64,000 nt of DNA from Carboxylicivirga linearis (lineage in GTDB: Bacteria; Bacteroidota; Bacteroidia; Bacteroidales; Marinilabiliaceae), in NCBI RefSeq assembly GCF_018271995.1, contig NZ_JAGUCO010000010.1, forward strand, positions 1 through 64,000, written 5' to 3'. The notes under the pieces are model-generated. The model saw only the letters and a program-made list of their open reading frames with translations, made no database searches and had not been told where the DNA came from. Shown in pieces: positions 28,656-36,996 of this stretch. The translations under genes and the position numbers were made by a program. The number at the start of each line of letters is the position of its first letter. Position 1 is the stretch's first letter.

Positions 28656-30347
28656 TTATTTCTCTTTTTCGAAAGGCCAGCCCATAATGCCTCCCTCCAT
28701 TACTTTAACATTGGTGTAACCATGAGCTTTTAATACACGTGAAGCTTCGTATCCGCGTAATGAGATTTTACAGTATGTAACAATAGGAGTAGACTTGTCA
28801 TCAGGTAATTCCTGAATGCGAGTACGTAACTGTCCTATTGGTATCAATGTCTCACCTGCACCCAAACGAGTTTGTTCATACTCATCGGGTCCGCGGGTGT
28901 CTAATAGATAAAGGCGTTCATTCTTATCTAATTTTTCTTTTACCTCCAGTGCGGATATTCCATCGAATAATCCGCGCATTTTATTTTGCATGATATGAGC
29001 TGTAGCAATGCTGTGATCGATGGCTAACGAGAATGGTGGGGCATAAGGTAAGTCGTTATTTGCCAAATCATCCACTGTAAGTTTGCCCATGATAGCGGTT
29101 GCCCAAATAGCAATTTGTTTACTTACATCACCCGGCCCAATAACCTGGGCCCCCAATATGCGACCAGTTTGCTTCTCAGCCACTAATTTGGTGATGAGTA
29201 ATTTTCCGTTCATAAAGCCTGGCTTATCCGGACTGGCGTTAACAACCTTAATGTAATCTAATCCTTCCTTTTCAGCAATTGCTTCGGATAGACCGGTAAT
29301 ACCAACGCCGTAGTCAAATATTTTACAGATACCGGTTTGAATGGTTCCCTTAAATGTTGCAACATCATTCAATATTACATTTTCGCCGGCGACACGTCCT
29401 TCAAGATTAGCAAGGTCGCCATAAGGTGCCAATACTTTTTTGCCTGTTATCTTATTGGTTACTTCAATGCAGTCGCCAACAGCATATATGTCTTTATCTG
29501 AAGTTTGCATGTAGTCGTTAACAGCTAGTCCTCCCAGTTCACCAATATCTAATCCTGCTTCGCGAGCTAGATCCACTCGAGGAGTTACACCAATTGCTAC
29601 AACAGCCAGTTCGCAAGGTATTTCAGTGCCATTGGCAAGCTTCACTGCTTTAAGTTTACCGTTTTCACCAATAAATTCGGCAACACCGTTTTTAGTAATA
29701 ACATTGGCTTTTGTTTTCAGGTAGTTCTCAACCAGCTTAGCCATCTTCCAGTCAAGGAAGGTTAATAGTTGTGGTAATAACTCAATAAGGGTGAGTTCAA
29801 TGCCAGCCAGATTTAGCGCTTCGGTTGTTTCAATACCAATTAAACCCCCACCTATAACAACTGCTTTTTTAATGCTTTTATCATCTCTGATCTTACGCAA
29901 ATAATCAGCGTTTTGCATTGATTGTAAAGGAGTGATTCCTTCCAGATCGATGCCGGGTATAGGAGGCATTTTAGGTGTTGATCCGGTGGCTATAATAAGT
30001 TTATCATAGGGTTGAATGCCTGTTTCACCAGTTGTCAGATCCTTAAATTCAACCAACATATTTTTGCGATCGATCCGCGTTACTTCTGTATTAACTTTGG
30101 CATCAATACCTTTTGCATTCAGGTAATATTTCGGATCGCGAACAACTCCGGTGGGGGTGCAGAGTAGCTTGTTTCTATCATCAAAAAAACCACCCACATA
30201 ATAAGGATAACCACATGAAGCCATTGATAAATCAGGTGCTTTCTGGAAGATAGTAATCTCAGCAGACTCATCTAATCGTCTTGCTCTGGCTGCAGCTTTT
30301 GGTCCGGCAGCAGATCCACCTATAATAACAATGCGTTTGTTTTTCAT
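28656..30347 (-). CDS. NADH-dependent persulfide/CoA-disulfide reductase fused to rhodanese
   Basis: 563 aa. Residues 1-450 are a flavoprotein disulfide reductase of the CoADR/NPSR type: FAD motif IIGGSAAGPKAAARAR, the single redox Cys45 in SMASCGYPYY, a second dinucleotide motif VVIGGGLIGIETTEAL, and the FAD-binding YAVGDCIEV. Residues about 460-563 are a rhodanese domain with Cys526 (TYCKISLRG). Characterised relatives reduce CoA persulfide, polysulfide or CoA disulfide using NADH, with rhodanese passing sulfane sulfur to the flavin site. It is the last gene of the ORP-like cluster, 26 nt after the Mrp ATPase, which suggests the cluster deals with sulfur or redox stress. Confidence 0.9.
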   Translation of the reverse strand: MKNKRIVIIGGSAAGPKAAARARRLDESAEITIFQKAPDLSMASCGYPYYVGGFFDDRNKLLCTPTGVVRDPKYYLNAKGIDAKVNTEVTRIDRKNMLVEFKDLTTGETGIQPYDKLIIATGSTPKMPPIPGIDLEGITPLQSMQNADYLRKIRDDKSIKKAVVIGGGLIGIETTEALNLAGIELTLIELLPQLLTFLDWKMAKLVENYLKTKANVITKNGVAEFIGENGKLKAVKLANGTEIPCELAVVAIGVTPRVDLAREAGLDIGELGGLAVNDYMQTSDKDIYAVGDCIEVTNKITGKKVLAPYGDLANLEGRVAGENVILNDVATFKGTIQTGICKIFDYGVGITGLSEAIAEKEGLDYIKVVNASPDKPGFMNGKLLITKLVAEKQTGRILGAQVIGPGDVSKQIAIWATAIMGKLTVDDLANNDLPYAPPFSLAIDHSIATAHIMQNKMRGLFDGISALEVKEKLDKNERLYLLDTRGPDEYEQTRLGAGETLIPIGQLRTRIQELPDDKSTPIVTYCKISLRGYEASRVLKAHGYTNVKVMEGGIMGWPFEKEK

Positions 30348-30373: not shown

Positions 30374-31195
30374 TTAATTTACTTTTTTAAGTATGTTATT
30401 AGTCAGCTCCTGAAATGCTTTGTGAACAGATGGCGTGTCTGTCAGGAAAATATTTTTGCCACTGTCTGATGTTTCTTCAATCTCCATAACTAAAGGAATC
30501 TGACCTATCAATGGAGCGTTTAATTCATCAGCCAATTGCTGCCCTCCACCTTTACCAAAAATGAAATAACGTTCATCTGGATGATTAGCAGGTGTAAACC
30601 AGGCCATGTTTTCAATGATTCCCAAAACAGGTGTTTGAACGTGTGGATTTGAGAACATATATCCGGCTTTTCTGCCGTCAGCAACAGCCAGCTGTTGTGG
30701 TGTAATCACAATCAGAGCTTTTGCTTTTTTGATATCCTGAGCCATGGTGATGGCAATATCACCTGTGCCGGGAGGCATGTCAATCAATAAGAAATCCAGT
30801 TCACCCCATTTGGTGTCTTCTATAACTTGTTTTAGCGTTTTTGATGCCATGGGACCACGCCAAATCATAGCATCTTCTTCCTTGGTTAATAAACCAATCG
30901 ACATAATTTTAACCCCATATTTTTCGATGGGAATAATTCTGGCTTTCTCGTTTTCTTTTTCAGCAACGGGTCGCTGGTTTTTAATATCAAACAAAATTGG
31001 GACAGAGGGGCCGTAAACGTCGGCATCGAGCAAGCCGGTTCTATATCCTTCCCGCGCCAAACTTATAGCAAGGTTGGCTGCCATGGTTGATTTTCCTACG
31101 CCTCCTTTCCCCGAAGCCACCAAAATAACGTTCTTAACAGAACTAAGCAGTTCAGGTTGTTTTTCTAGAGGTGTTACCATTTTATAATCAGACAT
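30374..31195 (-). CDS. Mrp/NBP35-family ATPase (iron-sulfur carrier type)
   Basis: 273-aa P-loop ATPase with the deviant Walker A ASGKGGVGKSTMAANLA, switch motifs LLDADVYGPS and LIDMPPGTGD, and the Mrp segment MIWRGPMASKTLKQ. Mrp/ApbC proteins carry or transfer Fe-S clusters. The MIP18/DUF59 N-terminal domain of long Mrp proteins is absent. The Cys-x-x-Cys that bridges a cluster in a dimer, normally just after ENMxxF, is missing: here the text reads ENMAWFTPANHPDERY. I recall the same lack in other Bacteroidota Mrp proteins, so it is odd but perhaps lineage-typical. The gene begins 6 nt after the upstream MinD-type gene. Confidence 0.88.
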   Translation of the reverse strand: MSDYKMVTPLEKQPELLSSVKNVILVASGKGGVGKSTMAANLAISLAREGYRTGLLDADVYGPSVPILFDIKNQRPVAEKENEKARIIPIEKYGVKIMSIGLLTKEEDAMIWRGPMASKTLKQVIEDTKWGELDFLLIDMPPGTGDIAITMAQDIKKAKALIVITPQQLAVADGRKAGYMFSNPHVQTPVLGIIENMAWFTPANHPDERYFIFGKGGGQQLADELNAPLIGQIPLVMEIEETSDSGKNIFLTDTPSVHKAFQELTNNILKKVN

Positions 31196-31201
31196 GATTT
31201 T

Positions 31202-32113
31202 TTATTGATGAGTTATTATTTTACTTTCTGTTGTTATTTCAGGCTGGTATTGAATTAGGTTGTGCCAAATGGTTTGGATTGCCTGAGCCGGTTGTGATGA
31301 AGGTGCATATTCAAAAATGTTTTGTTGCTCTTTCATTGCTTCCCAAAATTCTTTCGCATACGGAATTTTGCCTAACAAAGGGATATTCAATTTTTTCAGG
31401 TCTGCAATAATTGTTTTTTCGACTTCTTTATTAATTCCTGATTTATTTAAAATCGCATATCCCGGAATGTTAAAACTGTTGATCAGATCAACCACACGCA
31501 AAGCATCATGATGACCCGATAAAGTAGGTTCAATCACTAAAAGAACCATGTTGGTTCCTGAAAGAGATGCTATAACAGGGCATCCAATTCCCGGAGGTCC
31601 GTCGTTAAGTATAACATTAGCTGCTTGATTGACTGCAAGATCTTTTGCTTTTTTGCGAATGAAGGTGACCAACTTACCTGAGTTTTCTTCTCCTGGTTCC
31701 ATTTGAGCATGTACAAATGATCCAAAACGTGTTGAAGATTCATACCACCTGTGTCCATCATTTTGAACGGTTGTAATGGCTTGTTGAAGGCAGGCTCTCT
31801 CGCATAATCTGCATCCTTCACAGTTAAATGGATTTACTACATATTCATCATTGTTATTTAATTCAATGGCATTAAACCTACAAAGTGACTGACATAAGCC
31901 ACAACTTGAACAGATTTCTGTTTTGATACTAGCCGTTTGTCCACTAAGGAAGCTACCTTGCTCTTTTATTACTGGGTTGAGCAATAGAAACAAATCGGCA
32001 GCATCAACATCGTTGTCACATATAACCGCAGAAGTAAACAAACTTGCTAATGCTGCTGATATAGTTGTCTTTCCAGAGCCTCCTTTACCACTTAATACTG
32101 TAATCTCAAGCAT
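31202..32113 (-). CDS. MinD/ParA-type ATPase with inserted ferredoxin domain (second copy)
   Basis: 303 aa: a deviant Walker A (LSGKGGSGKTTISAALA), an inserted two-cluster 4Fe-4S ferredoxin domain (about residues 62-115, CSSCGLCQSLC and CEGCRLCERAC, four Cys each), then the rest of the P-loop fold (LNDGPPGIGCPV, LLVIEPTLSGHHD). Such paired ATPases accompany NifX/DUF134-type proteins in many anaerobes and are the Orp3/Orp4-type proteins of Desulfovibrio. ATP-driven Fe-S handling or protein positioning are the two roles proposed for the family. It overlaps the preceding paralogue by 8 nt, a sign of translational coupling and probable heterodimer formation. Confidence 0.9.
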   Translation of the reverse strand: MLEITVLSGKGGSGKTTISAALASLFTSAVICDNDVDAADLFLLLNPVIKEQGSFLSGQTASIKTEICSSCGLCQSLCRFNAIELNNNDEYVVNPFNCEGCRLCERACLQQAITTVQNDGHRWYESSTRFGSFVHAQMEPGEENSGKLVTFIRKKAKDLAVNQAANVILNDGPPGIGCPVIASLSGTNMVLLVIEPTLSGHHDALRVVDLINSFNIPGYAILNKSGINKEVEKTIIADLKKLNIPLLGKIPYAKEFWEAMKEQQNIFEYAPSSQPAQAIQTIWHNLIQYQPEITTESKIITHQ

Positions 32114-32984
32114 AGTGAACCCATTTATTTTTAAGATTAGAAATCAGTTTGGAATAAGCTGCATTAATATCGCCAGGTATATTTTTTAAAATGCTTCCCT
32201 GTGCATAGGAACTGGCATAATCAACCCTAAATGGTATTTCGGCTAATATTTCTATTCCTTCGCTCATCAGATAAGTATTTGTTTCTTCAAAGCCTTTGTC
32301 AGCCTTATTAATAATTACTCCAAACGGTTTATTTAGCTTTCTAACTAATTCAATCATTAATTTCAGATCGTGCAGACCAAAAGGAGTGGGTTCAGTAACT
32401 AAAATAATGTAATTGGCCTGACTGACAGTTGATACCACTGAGCAGCTGGTTCCGGGAGGCGCATCGTAAAGTATGATATCTCCGTTAAGCCAATCATCAT
32501 TCACTAAATGGTTGATGACCATGGTTTGCATAGCTGAACCAACTTTTAGTTTTCCCTCAATTAAAGGAGTCTCCTGATTGTTTCCGAACTTTATCAATTG
32601 ACCAATTGCATGGCTTTTTTCCGTTAGTGCATCTTCAGGACATGCATAAAGGCAGGCTCCACAAGAATGGCACAGAGCTGAGTTGACTTCGGCAAAACCA
32701 ACCCCTGGAATAACAACAGTCGCATTGAATTCGCAATAGTCAACGCATTTTTTGCAAAACGAACATCTATCTGTATTAATAGAAGGAATCATCTGCAATA
32801 CCTCTTTGGATTCAATTGGTTTCAGATCATCAAAAAATATAGATGAATTAGGTTCCTCTACATCACAATCGGCAATTTGAACTTTGCTTGTGATGTTTTC
32901 TTTTATATAATGAAATAGGGTTACTGTTACAGTTGTTTTTCCCGTACCTCCTTTGCCGCTAGCTACAGCTATTTTAATTGGCAT
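32106..32984 (-). CDS. MinD/ParA-type ATPase with inserted ferredoxin domain (first copy)
   Basis: 292 aa, paralogous to the next gene: Walker A ASGKGGTGKTTVTVTLF, ferredoxin insert (about 65-115) with CSFCKKCVDYC and CHSCGACLYACP, switch II LYDAPPGTSCSV and the FGLHDLKLMIELV helix. All eight cluster Cys are present, so two 4Fe-4S clusters are expected. Its end overlaps the start of the second copy by 8 nt. It begins after a 103-nt gap that holds a stable hairpin, so its level may be set separately from the three small upstream genes. Confidence 0.9.
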   Translation of the reverse strand: MPIKIAVASGKGGTGKTTVTVTLFHYIKENITSKVQIADCDVEEPNSSIFFDDLKPIESKEVLQMIPSINTDRCSFCKKCVDYCEFNATVVIPGVGFAEVNSALCHSCGACLYACPEDALTEKSHAIGQLIKFGNNQETPLIEGKLKVGSAMQTMVINHLVNDDWLNGDIILYDAPPGTSCSVVSTVSQANYIILVTEPTPFGLHDLKLMIELVRKLNKPFGVIINKADKGFEETNTYLMSEGIEILAEIPFRVDYASSYAQGSILKNIPGDINAAYSKLISNLKNKWVHYA

Positions 32985-33087: not shown

Positions 33088-33276
33088 CTAACTCTTATCT
33101 GAATTAAACCACCTTAATCCGCGTCCCCTACCGCGACCCGAATTACGTCCCATTCCACTACCCTTTGGAGTGTTTGAACGATTTTTTCCATTATTGTTTG
33201 AAGATTGACATCTTCCTTGTCCTCTGCCGGTTCCAGAACCTTGTCCTGAAGGACCGGTACCATCCATTCTAGGCAT
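33088..33276 (-). CDS. DUF5320-type Gly/Arg-rich small protein (62 aa)
   Basis: Begins MPRMDGTGPSGQGSGTGRGQ, the signature of the DUF5320 family (MPxxDGTGPxGxGxxTGRG), and continues with Gly, Ser, Asn and Arg repeats (GRGRGRGLRW) instead of a coiled coil. It is basic and likely disordered. Family members sit beside NifX-like and MinD-like genes in anaerobes and have no known activity. Its start overlaps the end of the NifX-type gene by 8 nt, so the two are translationally coupled. Confidence 0.85.
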   Translation of the reverse strand: MPRMDGTGPSGQGSGTGRGQGRCQSSNNNGKNRSNTPKGSGMGRNSGRGRGRGLRWFNSDKS

Positions 33277-33601
33277 AATTATTATTTGATTTTAACTGTT
33301 CTATGATGGATGAAATGGTTTTACTATCATCATCCAACATTACCATTTGAATTTTAAACTTGTTCAGCATGTCTTTTGCTTTGGGACCAAAATCGCCCGA
33401 GATAACTCTTGAAACTCCTGATTCTATTATTGTTTGTGCAGCTTTGTTTCCTGCACCACTTTTGGTATTGACGTTTTTATTCTCAATAAATTCAGTGGAG
33501 AGGTCTTCTGTGTTGAAAATGCAGAAGTAGGCTGCTCTGCCAAATCTTAAATCAAAGGTTGAATCGAGTGAATTATTAGTTGATGTAATGGCTATTTTCA
33601 T
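33269..33601 (-). CDS. NifX/NifB-type dinitrogenase iron-molybdenum cofactor domain protein
   Basis: 110 aa, a single NifX-like domain: MKIAITSTNNSLDSTFDLRF followed by GRAAYFCIFN, then AAQTIIESGVSRVISGDFGPKA and a final alpha/beta unit. This family includes the orange protein (ORP) of Desulfovibrio, which holds a mixed Mo-Cu sulfide cluster, and small cluster chaperones. No nif genes are in view, so a nitrogenase role is unlikely. The conserved RFGRA loop near the N-terminus is kept. It lies 3 nt after the DUF134 regulator and overlaps the DUF5320 gene. Confidence 0.88.
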   Translation of the reverse strand: MKIAITSTNNSLDSTFDLRFGRAAYFCIFNTEDLSTEFIENKNVNTKSGAGNKAAQTIIESGVSRVISGDFGPKAKDMLNKFKIQMVMLDDDSKTISSIIEQLKSNNNYA

Positions 33602-33604
33602 AAC

Positions 33605-34021
33605 TTATTCCTCTTTGTTGGTAATGATGGTTTCAATATTTTTTGACTGGCACATTGGGCAGCAATCGCTAGTTGAACAATCAGGTAAATTAAATCGGGC
33701 ATTGCAACGATTGCATACATACCAGCTTTCGTCCATATGTGCATGGCCATAAACGGCTCTTATTTCTTTGGTCTCAACCAGAGCTTCAGCTATCTTTCGT
33801 CGCGCGGTTTCGTAAATCCGTGCAAAGGTGGCCCGCGATATTCCCATTAGCTTTGATGCTTCCAGTTGATTCATTAAATCGTAATCAGCCAGTTTAATGG
33901 CCTCGTATTCTTCGTAAAGAAGTTCTACCGATCTGTTATTGGGTCTGTGGCCATATGGTTTGTACCCTTTAAATCCGGGTGGAGCTACTATTTTTCGTAA
34001 TCTTCTTCTGCGAGGCATCAA
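33605..34021 (-). CDS. DUF134-family DNA-binding regulator with C-terminal Cys cluster
   Basis: 138 aa. The N-terminus (RRRRLRKIVAPPGFKGYKP) and helix-turn-helix (YDLMNQLEASKLMGISRATF, then ARIYETARRKIAEALV) are those of DUF134 proteins, which resemble sigma-70 region 4. A C-terminal extension carries two CxxC pairs (CNRCN, CPMC) and further Cys and His, likely a zinc or Fe-S sensing site. It is the first gene of the cluster and is preceded by two identical near-palindromes overlapping its promoter, so autoregulation is very likely, with metal or redox state as the probable signal (inference). Confidence 0.9.
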   Translation of the reverse strand: MMPRRRRLRKIVAPPGFKGYKPYGHRPNNRSVELLYEEYEAIKLADYDLMNQLEASKLMGISRATFARIYETARRKIAEALVETKEIRAVYGHAHMDESWYVCNRCNARFNLPDCSTSDCCPMCQSKNIETIITNKEE

Positions 34022-34033
34022 TTTAAAATTTAA

Positions 34034-34079
34034 ATGAGAATATGCTCAAAATTATAAATAATGAGAATATGCTCAAAAT
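34034..34079 (-). promoter_or_regulatory. promoter and double operator of the ORP-like cluster
   Basis: A 19-bp direct repeat (ATGAGAATATGCTCAAAAT) occurs at 34034-34052 and 34061-34079, 27 bp apart. Each contains the near-palindrome TGAGCATATTCTCA (12 of 14 symmetric). Read on the minus strand, a -33 TTTG (34077-34074) and an exact -7 box TAATTTTG (34054-34047) are 19 nt apart, and each box lies against one operator. The expected start of transcription is near 34040, about 20 nt before the ATG. This geometry suits a repressor dimer on each site, most likely the DUF134 protein. Confidence 0.8.
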
Positions 34080-34271: not shown

Positions 34272-36239
34272 ATGAGTAGCCAACTATTGTCTGTAAATTG
34301 GGGAAAGACAATTTTATTAGGAATTATCTTAAGTCTTACCTTCTTCCCTGAAAGCTACGCAAGAGGTAGCAAGCTTCCACCTGTTGAATTAAAAGATAGT
34401 TTAGTAAGTGTTTTAACTGATGCCGGTAATGATACGTTATTAGTCGATAGTGTTTATGCGCTCATAAAAATCTATCGTCGCCAATTAAAAGATGAGTATA
34501 AAAATATTCTGGTTGATTATATCAATTACTCTTCGGATATTGGCTACACTCGCGGAGCCATGCGAATGTATGATCGATTAGGACTAAACGAACGATATAG
34601 CGAGCGATTTGATTCTGCTGTTTTTTATCATCATAAATCGTTGGAACTGGCTATTCAGCTCAAGGATAGTTTTCAGATGGCTTATAACTATAATAATATT
34701 GGTCAGGCGTATCGATTGCAGGATATGAATAGTTTGGCCATTAAAAATTTTCATAAAGCTCTGGATTTGCAGGAGGCTAATGGCAATGATAAAGGAGCGT
34801 CGTTTACTCAAAATACTCTGGGTGCGGTTTATGTTGTACAAAAGGAGTATGATCAGGCGATGCATTATTTCAGAGAATCGCAGAAAACAGCGAAGCATAG
34901 AAATGATTTACGAACCCAATCCTATAACCTGGGAGCTATGGGTGAAGTTTATATGCTGCAAAATCAACCCGATTCAGCTATTTTATATTTTACTACAGCC
35001 AAAGATATTAAACTGGAAATGGGTGATAAGAAAGGGCTTGGTGTATCGAACCATTTAATTGGTCAGGCTTATTTTAATAAAGGCGATTATTTTAAAGCTG
35101 AATCGTATTTGAACGGAGCCTTAAATCTACATCTAAAATATCATACGGAACGATACATTGCCTTGTGTTACGATTATTTGGGTAAAATAAAGCTTAAGCA
35201 GAATAAGTATGACGAAGCTGCCGATTATTTATTAAAAGCAAAATCAATTTCTACCAATATACACTCGTACGAAAATTTATTGTCCATCAATAGTAGTCTG
35301 AAAGAGCTTTATCAGAATCAGCGGCAATGGCCTTTGGCAATGCAGGTGATGGTGCAAAATGAGCAAATAAACGATAGTATTTACAGCTTGAAGAAAGCGC
35401 GGGAAATGCAGGCGCTTGAGATCGAATACGAAACCGAAAAGCGTGAACAGCAAATTAAACTGCTTTCGGCCGAAAATGAGATAAAAGAGCAACGACTTAA
35501 AATAGGTATTGCCATTATTGCATTGCTGGTTCTTACCATTGGTTTTTGGTTTTTTATGCAGAAGGAGAAACAAAAACGAATTCTGTTAGAGCGTGATAAA
35601 GTAAGACAACAGTTGTTGCGATCACAAATGAATCCTCACTTCTTGTTTAATGCTCTGGGTAGCATTCAAAGTTATATGTATCAGAATGATGTTAAAACAG
35701 CTGCAAGATATATGGGTAACTTTGCTTCGTTAACTCGCTCTATTTTGAATAATTCGGCAGTAGAACAGGTATCGCTCGATGAAGAAATAAGTACACTAAA
35801 AAATTATCTGGAACTTGAAAAAATGCGTTTGCAATCCAATTTCCAGTACAGTATTGAAGTGCCTGAAGATATTGATGTAGAATTTGTAGCTGTTCCTCCC
35901 ATGTTGATCCAGCCTTTTGTTGAAAATGCCATCAAACATGGGATTAAAAATTACAGTTCGGGAGGAAAGGTGAAGCTTGCTTTTGAAGAGAAGGAAGATC
36001 TTATTCATGTAGTGATTGAAGATAATGGAGAGGGAATAAACACGACGAAAGAAAAAGGTACAATCAATCACAAGTCGATGGCTACTACTATTTTTAAGCA
36101 GCGAATGAAAATTATCCGCGATAAATTCCCGAATGTTCCTGAGCCTGTTATTTACGACTTATCTGAGAATGATAGTCAAGGTACCCGAATTGATTTGTAT
36201 CTGCCAATACTTGAATTAAGTCCCATTTTAAATTCCTGA
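34272..36239 (+). CDS. TPR-sensor histidine kinase of the LytS/His_kinase type
   Basis: 655 aa. A signal or first membrane segment (ILLGIILSLTFF) is followed by a periplasmic TPR array (about 85-365, e.g. YNNIGQAYRLQDMNSLAIKN), a coiled coil, a transmembrane helix (about 410-428, IGIAIIALLVLTIGFWFF), and a cytoplasmic kinase. The kinase has the PF06580 motif LRSQMNPHFLFNALGSIQ with phospho-acceptor His456, and an ATPase domain with PPMLIQPFVENAIKHGI and EDNGEGI. It pairs with the LytTR regulator 4 nt downstream. The signal sensed is unknown; Bacteroidota use this class widely. The following OMP/OmpA/T9SS genes may be its targets (inference from order only). Confidence 0.92.
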   Translation: MSSQLLSVNWGKTILLGIILSLTFFPESYARGSKLPPVELKDSLVSVLTDAGNDTLLVDSVYALIKIYRRQLKDEYKNILVDYINYSSDIGYTRGAMRMYDRLGLNERYSERFDSAVFYHHKSLELAIQLKDSFQMAYNYNNIGQAYRLQDMNSLAIKNFHKALDLQEANGNDKGASFTQNTLGAVYVVQKEYDQAMHYFRESQKTAKHRNDLRTQSYNLGAMGEVYMLQNQPDSAILYFTTAKDIKLEMGDKKGLGVSNHLIGQAYFNKGDYFKAESYLNGALNLHLKYHTERYIALCYDYLGKIKLKQNKYDEAADYLLKAKSISTNIHSYENLLSINSSLKELYQNQRQWPLAMQVMVQNEQINDSIYSLKKAREMQALEIEYETEKREQQIKLLSAENEIKEQRLKIGIAIIALLVLTIGFWFFMQKEKQKRILLERDKVRQQLLRSQMNPHFLFNALGSIQSYMYQNDVKTAARYMGNFASLTRSILNNSAVEQVSLDEEISTLKNYLELEKMRLQSNFQYSIEVPEDIDVEFVAVPPMLIQPFVENAIKHGIKNYSSGGKVKLAFEEKEDLIHVVIEDNGEGINTTKEKGTINHKSMATTIFKQRMKIIRDKFPNVPEPVIYDLSENDSQGTRIDLYLPILELSPILNS

Positions 36240-36243
36240 AATT

Positions 36244-36996
36244 ATGAGCCGTTTTAAAGCTGTAATTATTGATGATGAACCTAATATGCGTTTGTTGCTT
36301 CGTGAGTTGGTTGCTGATAATTTCACCGAAATTCAAATAATGGCTGAAGCCGGATCGGTAGATGAAGGTGTGGCAATTATTCTGCAACATAAACCCGATA
36401 TTGTATTTTTAGATATTGAAATTAAGGGAGGAACGGGTTTTCATATTTTGCAAAAGGTAAAACCCTACTCATTCAAATTGATTTTTATTACGGCATTTAA
36501 TCAATTTGCCATCAAAGCCATTAAGTTTAGCGCCATCGATTATATTCTTAAGCCTGTAAACGAAACCGAGTTTGTGCAAGCTGTTTCTAATGCCATTGAT
36601 AGTATTCAGCAATCGTTAAGTTCGGCTCAGATGACTAATTTTATTGATCATTTTGAGAAGGAAGAGCAGCGCAAGAAAATCGTACTTCGTACTTCTGATG
36701 CTATCCATTTAGTTGAGGTTAGCGATATTGTTTATTGTAAAAGCGATAATAGTTATACCTCTTTTTATTTAAAAGATCAAAAAGAGATTTTAGTATCGAA
36801 ATCGATTAAAGAGTTTGCTGATTTGTTGGAGGAATATCGTTTTTTTCGGCCTCATCAATCATTCTTGGTTAACCTGAACTGTGTAAACAAGATTGATAAA
36901 ACTGACGGTGGATTTATCATCCTAAATAACGGAAAGGAAATACCCGTGTCAGGGCGCCGAAAAGCCTATGTGCTGCAGATGGTAGAAGCGTTGTGA
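36244..36996 (+). CDS. LytTR-family response regulator
   Basis: 250 aa. The receiver domain (1-120) has the acidic pair Asp10-Asp11, phospho-acceptor Asp57 (FLDIEIKGG) and the switch Lys in YILKPV. The C-terminal LytTR DNA-binding domain (about 145-250) carries IVYCKSDNSYTSFYL, FFRPHQSFLVNL and IPVSGRRKAYVL, all hallmark segments. It starts 4 nt after the kinase stop, so the two form a cognate pair. LytTR proteins bind direct repeats in target promoters; I found no obvious repeat pair to assign to it. Confidence 0.94.
   Translation: MSRFKAVIIDDEPNMRLLLRELVADNFTEIQIMAEAGSVDEGVAIILQHKPDIVFLDIEIKGGTGFHILQKVKPYSFKLIFITAFNQFAIKAIKFSAIDYILKPVNETEFVQAVSNAIDSIQQSLSSAQMTNFIDHFEKEEQRKKIVLRTSDAIHLVEVSDIVYCKSDNSYTSFYLKDQKEILVSKSIKEFADLLEEYRFFRPHQSFLVNLNCVNKIDKTDGGFIILNNGKEIPVSGRRKAYVLQMVEAL

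Follow-up and report, generated by a model that had tools for sequence, protein, structure and literature searches.

The stretch of DNA that concerns us here, which we call the window, is 64,000 nucleotides from Carboxylicivirga linearis. On its minus strand lies a proposed operon that begins with a gene for a DUF134 protein. Pfam labels this family (PF02001) a protein of unknown function, and PF02001 is the sole Pfam domain found in the 137-residue window protein. Its score against the NCBIfam equivalog PRK04217 is 60.6 bits, under that model's cut-off of 115. The ATG at 34018-34016 is a more likely start codon than the TTG at 34021. The genes, and the elements upstream of them, are set out below in the order in which they would be transcribed.

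34062..34075, minus strand: putative distal operator TGAGCATATTCTCA, opening with the TG that closes the -33 TTTG box; twin sites occur in relatives
34074..34077, minus strand: -33 box TTTG, a consensus match only
34047..34054, minus strand: -7 box TAATTTTG, 19 nt after TTTG; TAnnTTTG boxes lie in preferred operator registers at other loci
34035..34048, minus strand: putative proximal operator TGAGCATATTCTCA, opening with the TG that closes TAATTTTG at -7
33605..34018, minus strand: DUF134 (PF02001) protein, 137 aa, proposed autorepressor; PF02001 at 73.3 bits, cut-off 27
33815..33841, minus strand: codons 60-68 (ISRATFARI), where the recognition helix begins; A63, A66 and R67 are the proposed specificity residues
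33650..33715, minus strand: CxxC...CxxC tail, residues 102-123, zinc-ribbon-like; missing from some DUF134s that keep the operator
33269..33601, minus strand: NifX/ORP-like protein (PF02579, Nitro_FeMo-Co), the next gene and candidate sensor partner; fused to DUF134 in other bacteria
33088..33276, minus strand: DUF5320 protein (PF17253), from Pfam
32106..32984, minus strand: MinD-type ATPase with ferredoxin insert, first copy, from Pfam
31202..32113, minus strand: MinD-type ATPase with ferredoxin insert, second copy, from Pfam
30374..31195, minus strand: Mrp/NBP35-type Fe-S carrier (PF10609), from Pfam and NCBIfam
28656..30347, minus strand: CoA-disulfide-reductase-like flavoprotein with rhodanese domain, last gene of the proposed operon

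The last of these matches, in Pfam, a pyridine-nucleotide-disulphide oxidoreductase with a rhodanese domain; its closest NCBIfam name is CoA-disulfide reductase, below that model's cut-off. We take an ORP-type cluster to be one that combines a PF02579 protein, a MinD-ferredoxin pair and Mrp. Pfam finds all of these in the window operon alongside PF02001, and the original prediction's description of an ORP-like cluster with DUF134 as its first gene was a fair one. On the other side of the upstream region (34272-36996), starting about 200 bp from the operators, are a divergent TPR-histidine kinase and, by eye, a response regulator.

The upstream region itself carries two identical 19-mers, at 34034-34052 and 34061-34079. 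Within them the copies of TGAGCATATTCTCA, on the minus strand and hence the operon's coding strand, start 27 bp apart, and the 14-mer is palindromic at 12 of its 14 positions, just as the initial reading of near-palindromic repeats at this spacing had it. Read along the minus strand, operators and promoter run TTTTGAGCATATTCTCATTATTTATAATTTTGAGCATATTCTCA...ATG, so that the first TG of each operator is the final TG of either TTTG or TAATTTTG. The further claim that the repeats sit on these two boxes, 19 nt apart, is thus confirmed, each box sharing its final TG with an operator. By their match to the consensus, the -33 and -7 boxes would belong to the Bacteroidetes promoter type. A standard sigma70 scan of the operon returned promoter-like sites at the shuffled rate (18 versus 18.0), and so the promoter claim rests on that consensus together with the register.

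How particular are these sites? Within the window, TGAGCATATTCTCA matches exactly at the twin pair only, and only this pair stands out: up to three mismatches from the 14-mer give 10 matches where 9.16 are expected. Across the whole genome of 6,048,677 bases, TGAGNATATNCTCA occurs without mismatch at the twin sites only, and with one mismatch allowed at 17 places, against 9 for the reversed control. A one-mismatch TGAGCATATGCTTA at C104:385906 has no DUF134 in the surrounding 4 kb. Another TGAGCATATGCTTA lies directly 5' of the genome's second DUF134 gene (95 aa), which is followed by a NifX-like gene (a phmmer match). Our first hint that the site goes with DUF134 was that this one genome has operator-type sites before two DUF134 genes.

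The family at large was gathered from several sources. A PF02001 search matched 7 of 198 genomes of the class at E 0.001, 4 of them over the cut-off, and 115 of 395 genomes of the phylum, 102 over the cut-off. The best 80 loci of a contig profile scan came from Calditrichia, Spirochaetes, Cloacimonadota, Neomarinimicrobiota, Krumholzibacteriia, Deferribacterales, Campylobacteraceae, Bacteroidales and others. With duplicates and pattern loci (L001-L004, L006, L007, L012) and loci below the Pfam cut-off (L009-L011, L013) left out beforehand, 155 DUF134 matches were located. Dereplication at 80% identity reduced them to 128, namely 38 from the window and the phylum genomes, 74 from the contig profile scan and 16 of a GRPxxCR type from family f74.

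Expectation-maximisation on the 100 nt upstream of these genes recovered, de novo, TGAGCATATGCTCA in the 38-locus set and TGNACATATGTNCA in the separate 74-locus set, with log-likelihoods of 335 and 434 versus 24 and 37 for one shuffled set each. Without a symmetry constraint the motif was still palindromic (TGAGCATATGCTCA and TGAACATATGTtCA). When a matrix trained on one set was tested on the other, a site of at least 8 bits lay within 100 nt upstream of 25 of 38 DUF134 genes in the first set, compared with 1 of 134 other ORFs from these loci; in the second set the figures were 36 of 74 and 6 of 331. The 8-bit threshold was missed by 13/38 and 38/74 loci; with either matrix and 160 nt, 21 of the 112 non-GRPxxCR loci had no 7-bit site. 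The wider motif is TG-N2-CATATG-N2-CA with lineage variants, and the operator is, judged by sequence, a signature of the DUF134 family. The GRPxxCR proteins of f74 may be under different control: the position weight matrix finds an operator in 0 or 1 of the 16, and NifX lies downstream in none of the 14 with at least 1 kb of downstream sequence. The same family has a second DUF134 type (L151), with TTAGCATATGCCAA upstream and, downstream, a ferritin-like gene and (by eye) a rubrerythrin-like gene.

We also scanned 395 whole genomes blind, with TGARCATATGYTCA and no gene information. The scan gave 37 sites in 34 genomes, the reversed control giving 3 among the matches listed. DUF134 lies directly downstream of 19 of the 37 sites, in 17 genomes (17 of 30 loci viewed), and is absent downstream at 13 of the 30 viewed loci; the 5 remaining sites, outside those 30 loci, are in genomes without a DUF134 match. 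By hand tally, the motif is present in 18 of 32 DUF134 genomes outside f74 versus 15 of 293 genomes without DUF134 (P 1.6e-12), f74 having been set apart from this test after its own result was known. That result was a motif in only one (G340) of 70 genomes with DUF134 over the cut-off, away from the DUF134 gene. One of the 18 genomes, G439, likewise carries the motif elsewhere than at its DUF134 gene.

Close relatives and plasmid copies served as a held-out test. Of the 40 relative genomes (the organism's own included), 26 had DUF134 matches at E 1e-8; 30 of the 43 match rows had loci, and our counts cover 28 distinct orthologues. Some of them overlap with the training set: counted over residues 1-90, identity to the window protein is 97% for L195 and 92% for L196, and L206 is 86% identical to L129; L218 equals training locus L086. 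The pattern TGAR-N6-YTCA occurs within 110 nt of 25 of the 28 orthologues, against 3 of 560 shuffled upstreams. The exact 14-mer, which the original prediction proposed to look for upstream of DUF134 clusters in other genomes, does stand before the orthologue in two genomes of the same genus: L195 and L196 each have a single copy, with the window layout kept, TAnnTTTG box included. Its exact form is confined to these close relatives and the family has variants, and we rejected the idea of a single conserved 14-mer for the family. Among the 17 orthologues with alanine at residue 66, as in the window protein, twin sites fit the exact pattern in 7 and come within two mismatches of it in another 4, the other 6 having a single site, which makes the double operator common in the A66 clade. 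The plasmid survey took in 10 of 189 records, most of the 189 being from Klebsiella (69) and Citrobacter (57). There were no nucleotide matches to the window region in plasmids, and in viral contigs 66 stretches fit a DUF134 pattern, none of them confirmed.

If a DUF134 protein reads the operator beside its own gene, variation in one should be mirrored in the other. From 92 operator-protein pairs we removed L019 and L117, and in the remaining 90 scored every sufficiently filled protein column against each half-site base. Operators were picked by motif score, which favours C at base 5, and for the 90-pair set also by a typed list. The best-scoring DUF134 columns are residue 67 (base 2), residue 63 (base 3) and residue 66 (base 4). 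The AlphaFold model puts all three near one another, where the recognition helix begins (helix 62-82, mean pLDDT 87.8). The counts of the pairings are inflated by relatedness. At residue 67, arginine goes with G at base 2 in 165 of 168 half-sites and asparagine with T in 10 of 10. At residue 63, proline goes with A at base 3 (64/66), as does alanine (24/24), and glycine goes with T (6/6); the 68 half-sites of serine proteins have C in 46 cases and A in 20, and the 16 of glutamine proteins have A in 10 and G in 6. At residue 66, threonine or serine accompanies A at base 4 (113/122), and glycine, alanine or glutamine accompanies G (56/58). In a strict set of 61 pairs, picked only by the other set's matrix, residues 63 and 66 are still the top columns; base 2 is nearly invariant there and residue 67 is not top. 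A home-made tree test, on a tree built without the helix columns, counted 4 same-branch changes of S63 with C3 (null mean 0.51, 0 of 5000) and 4 of residue 66 with base 4 (null mean 0.51, P 0.0002).

The relatives bear out the residue-66 pairing, with A66 paired to G4 in 44 of 48 half-sites and T66 to A4 in 17 of 18 (P 4e-11); exceptions to the pairing are the plasmid copy L224 (S66 with G4) and L208 (A66 with one A4). On plasmids, DUF134 copies carrying N67 or S67 have palindromes whose base 2 is T. The N67 carriers are the gammaproteobacterial L230, L232 and L233 and an Acetoanaerobium copy (L226), and the S67 carrier is from Roseburia (L225). A script found ATGGCATATGCTAT at L230 and L232 and TTGACATATGTCAA at L225; ATAGCATATGCCAA at L233 and TTAGCAAATGCCAA at L226 were seen only by eye. 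Residue 66 may also account for an oddity of the window, its core of CATATT rather than CATATG: C is lost at base 5 in 7 of 10 half-sites of five A66 proteins versus 0 of 170 for the others, in a comparison whose matrix itself favours C5. Together the comparative data suggest which DUF134 residues read which DNA bases.

They also bear on who binds the sites. The operator tracks NifX-type operons as well as DUF134: counting non-GRPxxCR DUF134 loci with at least 1 kb downstream, a NifX-like gene lies within 3.5 kb in 65 of 87 that bear the operator versus 6 of 18 that do not. This is what one might expect were another transcription factor, encoded elsewhere, to bind the sites, with DUF134 a mere passenger of the operon. 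Such a factor would have to explain why bases 2-4 follow residues of the DUF134 recognition helix above all other DUF134 columns (bases 3 and 4 also in the strict set) and why the motif is so rare in genomes that have no DUF134. We regard it as very improbable.

A sequence search of the PDB found no solved DUF134 structure. The best profile match was the DNA-binding domain of DeoR (7bhy, E 1.6e-5), whose ISRPTVSRLL in the Bacillus subtilis protein aligns without gaps to the DUF134 consensus ISRPTFTRLI; a beta strand follows the helix-turn-helix (HTH) in both. The DeoR structural paper gives the operator OL18 as ATTGAACAAAATTTCAAT, of the form TGAA-N6-TTCA, and a full operator whose right half contains CATATGTTCA and ends ...TTACATATGTTCAA (PMC11229326). 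It describes contacts of R39 to T14 and G4 and of R34 to T12, the R39 contact being seen at 3.7 Å, where the authors say interactions are not observable with high confidence; in a higher-resolution structure R39 of one chain touched backbone only (PMC11229326). R34 and R39 are five residues apart in DeoR, as are R62 and R67 in DUF134, and R39 may therefore be the equivalent of R67, and G4 that of base 2. The DUF134 motif matches the TGAA half-site and the N6 spacing. DUF134 would then work like DeoR without being a member of the SorC/DeoR group: its profile match is to a DeoR-type homeodomain-like HTH, yet Pfam shows no sugar-phosphate effector domain in it. Most DUF134 proteins span 90-170 aa, many of them end in a zinc-ribbon-like tail, and their genes sit beside NifX-like ones.

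Fold comparison is less discriminating. Foldseek places the DUF134 model on 7bhy with an rmsd of 0.7 Å over 40 columns (E 0.25, rank 29), and 7bhy is absent among the 50 matches listed by a second structural aligner. DeoR was one of many equal HTH matches in the fold search, none at E 0.001, the best E-values going to MCM N-terminal domains. Fold alone does not separate a DeoR-type HTH from sigma region 4, which fits the model just as closely. That region is one of the nearest folds to the DUF134 HTH, and Pfam Sigma70_r4 models match some DUF134s; unlike a sigma-70 family member, the window protein has no region 2 match (Pfam, E 0.001), and the DUF134 operator is a symmetric palindrome, unlike a sigma -35 element. 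Archaeal EnfR (8hno), which we presume is linked to Tfx, matches the HTH with Z 6.7 and an rmsd of 1.5 over 52 residues, tied with many sigma factors. EnfR is reported to be a putative repressor of a CODH cluster (PMC10570040).

The placement of the operator relative to promoters speaks to what DUF134 would do there. In other phyla, TTGAC-like -35 and TATAAT-like -10 elements surround the operator at 20 of 39 loci versus 0.8 from shuffled flanks, with the -35 at -8 or -9 and the operator in the spacer at 18 of 39. Of 16 Bacteroidota-titled loci in the contig profile scan, 10 have a TAnnTTTG that begins one base past the operator; of 35 from genomes of the window's phylum, 11 have one that ends three bases ahead of the operator. 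The shuffled control covers the -35/-10 layout, and the two TAnnTTTG registers are raw counts. All three layouts should block RNA polymerase, which makes negative autoregulation the most likely mechanism.

We therefore read the twin sites, with a probability of about 0.87, as operators of the adjacent DUF134 protein, through which it would autorepress the DUF134-NifX-DUF5320-MinD-MinD-Mrp operon; very probably DUF134 represses its own gene by blocking the promoter. The argument is built on what was computed: the sites and how far they are conserved, the register that they keep with promoter-like boxes, and the way in which residues and bases co-vary. From these we infer that DUF134 binds the sites, that it does so as a dimer and that it represses rather than activates. 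A dimer would insert the starts of its recognition helices (residues 62-67) into two major-groove half-sites, TGAG-N6-CTCA, six bp apart, with R67 reading base 2, residue 63 base 3 and residue 66 base 4. Two such dimers, 27 bp apart, would cover the -33 box and the -7/start region, so that RNA polymerase could not engage and the operon would be autorepressed. The direct repression first predicted from the window alone is thus strongly supported by site conservation, promoter placement, co-variation and the precedent of DeoR on DNA. Similar HTH folds do occur in proteins that contact RNA polymerase, sigma region 4 being among the best fold matches, and DUF134 might on that account be an activator, or a regulator that switches both on and off, at these operators. 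The positions are those of occlusion: over the -33 and -7 boxes in the window, between -35- and -10-like boxes in other phyla and adjoining TAnnTTTG in Bacteroidota. An activating role is accordingly unlikely, and we keep to autorepression.

What would lift the repression? The original prediction placed a metal or redox switch in the cysteine-rich tail, and the tail is certainly well kept: CxxC...CxxC is present in 105 of the 128 dereplicated DUF134s, and in an alignment of 57 sequences C102 and C105 never vary and C120 and C123 hardly do. It is absent in the other 23, among them operator-bearing 90-aa forms (L126, L134 and L140, with TGAGCATATGCTCA upstream), and so cannot be a general switch. 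The tail-less 95-aa paralogue of the window genome, too, has its TGAGCATATGCTTA, and tail-less proteins retain the adjacent NifX gene along with the operator. The tail is modelled as short strands like those of a zinc ribbon and has weak profile matches to structural zinc ribbons. It may be structural, though in the window protein itself it could still act as a switch. As a general mechanism the cysteine switch does not hold up, and we consider it doubtful.

The NifX-like domain is, we believe, a better candidate for the sensor. All six plasmid DUF134 proteins longer than 230 aa in the 10 records examined are DUF134-NifX (PF02579) fusions; they come from Roseburia (L225), Treponema (L227), Pusillibacter (L228), Selenomonas (L229), Subdoligranulum (L231) and Parabacteroides (L224), the last with 60 residues between the domains. 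These fusions, with the NifX neighbours described above, indicate the NifX-like protein as the sensing partner. In the window, the adjacent protein might sense a metal or metal-sulfur cofactor and so release repression. More tentatively still, at somewhat less than even odds, DUF134 and NifX-like proteins could form a widespread, undescribed class of metal-cofactor sensors, in which DUF134 reads DNA by a simple residue-to-base code while a NifX/ORP-like domain, fused or adjacent, binds a metal-sulfur cofactor and releases the repressor. If that is true, the circuit measures the very cofactor that its own operon assembles or carries.

The orp operons of Desulfovibrio vulgaris, which encode an ORP/NifX-type protein like the window's, have what we take to be a related gene set. 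Their regulation is reported to be by sigma54, DVU2106 and IHF, and differs from the autorepression that we propose for DUF134 (PMC3897727). Among the open-access titles and passages covered we found no functional study under DUF134, UPF0251 or PF02001, most subscription journals being outside the scope of that search; UPF0251 appeared in a mutation table only, four operator 14-mers were absent, and a 12-mer and PF02001 came up only under unrelated titles. HTH proteins that act as repressors of their own genes are an established type of regulator. The operator and recognition code of DUF134, and a NifX-type sensor, would be new. DUF134 would gain a probable function and an operator, along with a recognition code at the level of residues, and ORP/NifX/MinD gene clusters would become systems whose inducer can be sought.

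Several loci have neighbours of their own interest. Downstream of the operator-bearing DUF134 at L070 is an ArsP_2-type putative heavy-metal exporter. Upstream of a Deferribacterales DUF134 (L119) we see, by eye, a long inverted repeat, AATAGGATTATGTTGAC...AACATAATCCTATT, in place of the usual palindrome. The gammaproteobacterial plasmid copies L233, L232 and L230 are DUF134-NifX pairs, with a PaaI-family gene next in two of the three and a Dps gene in the one from Klebsiella michiganensis.
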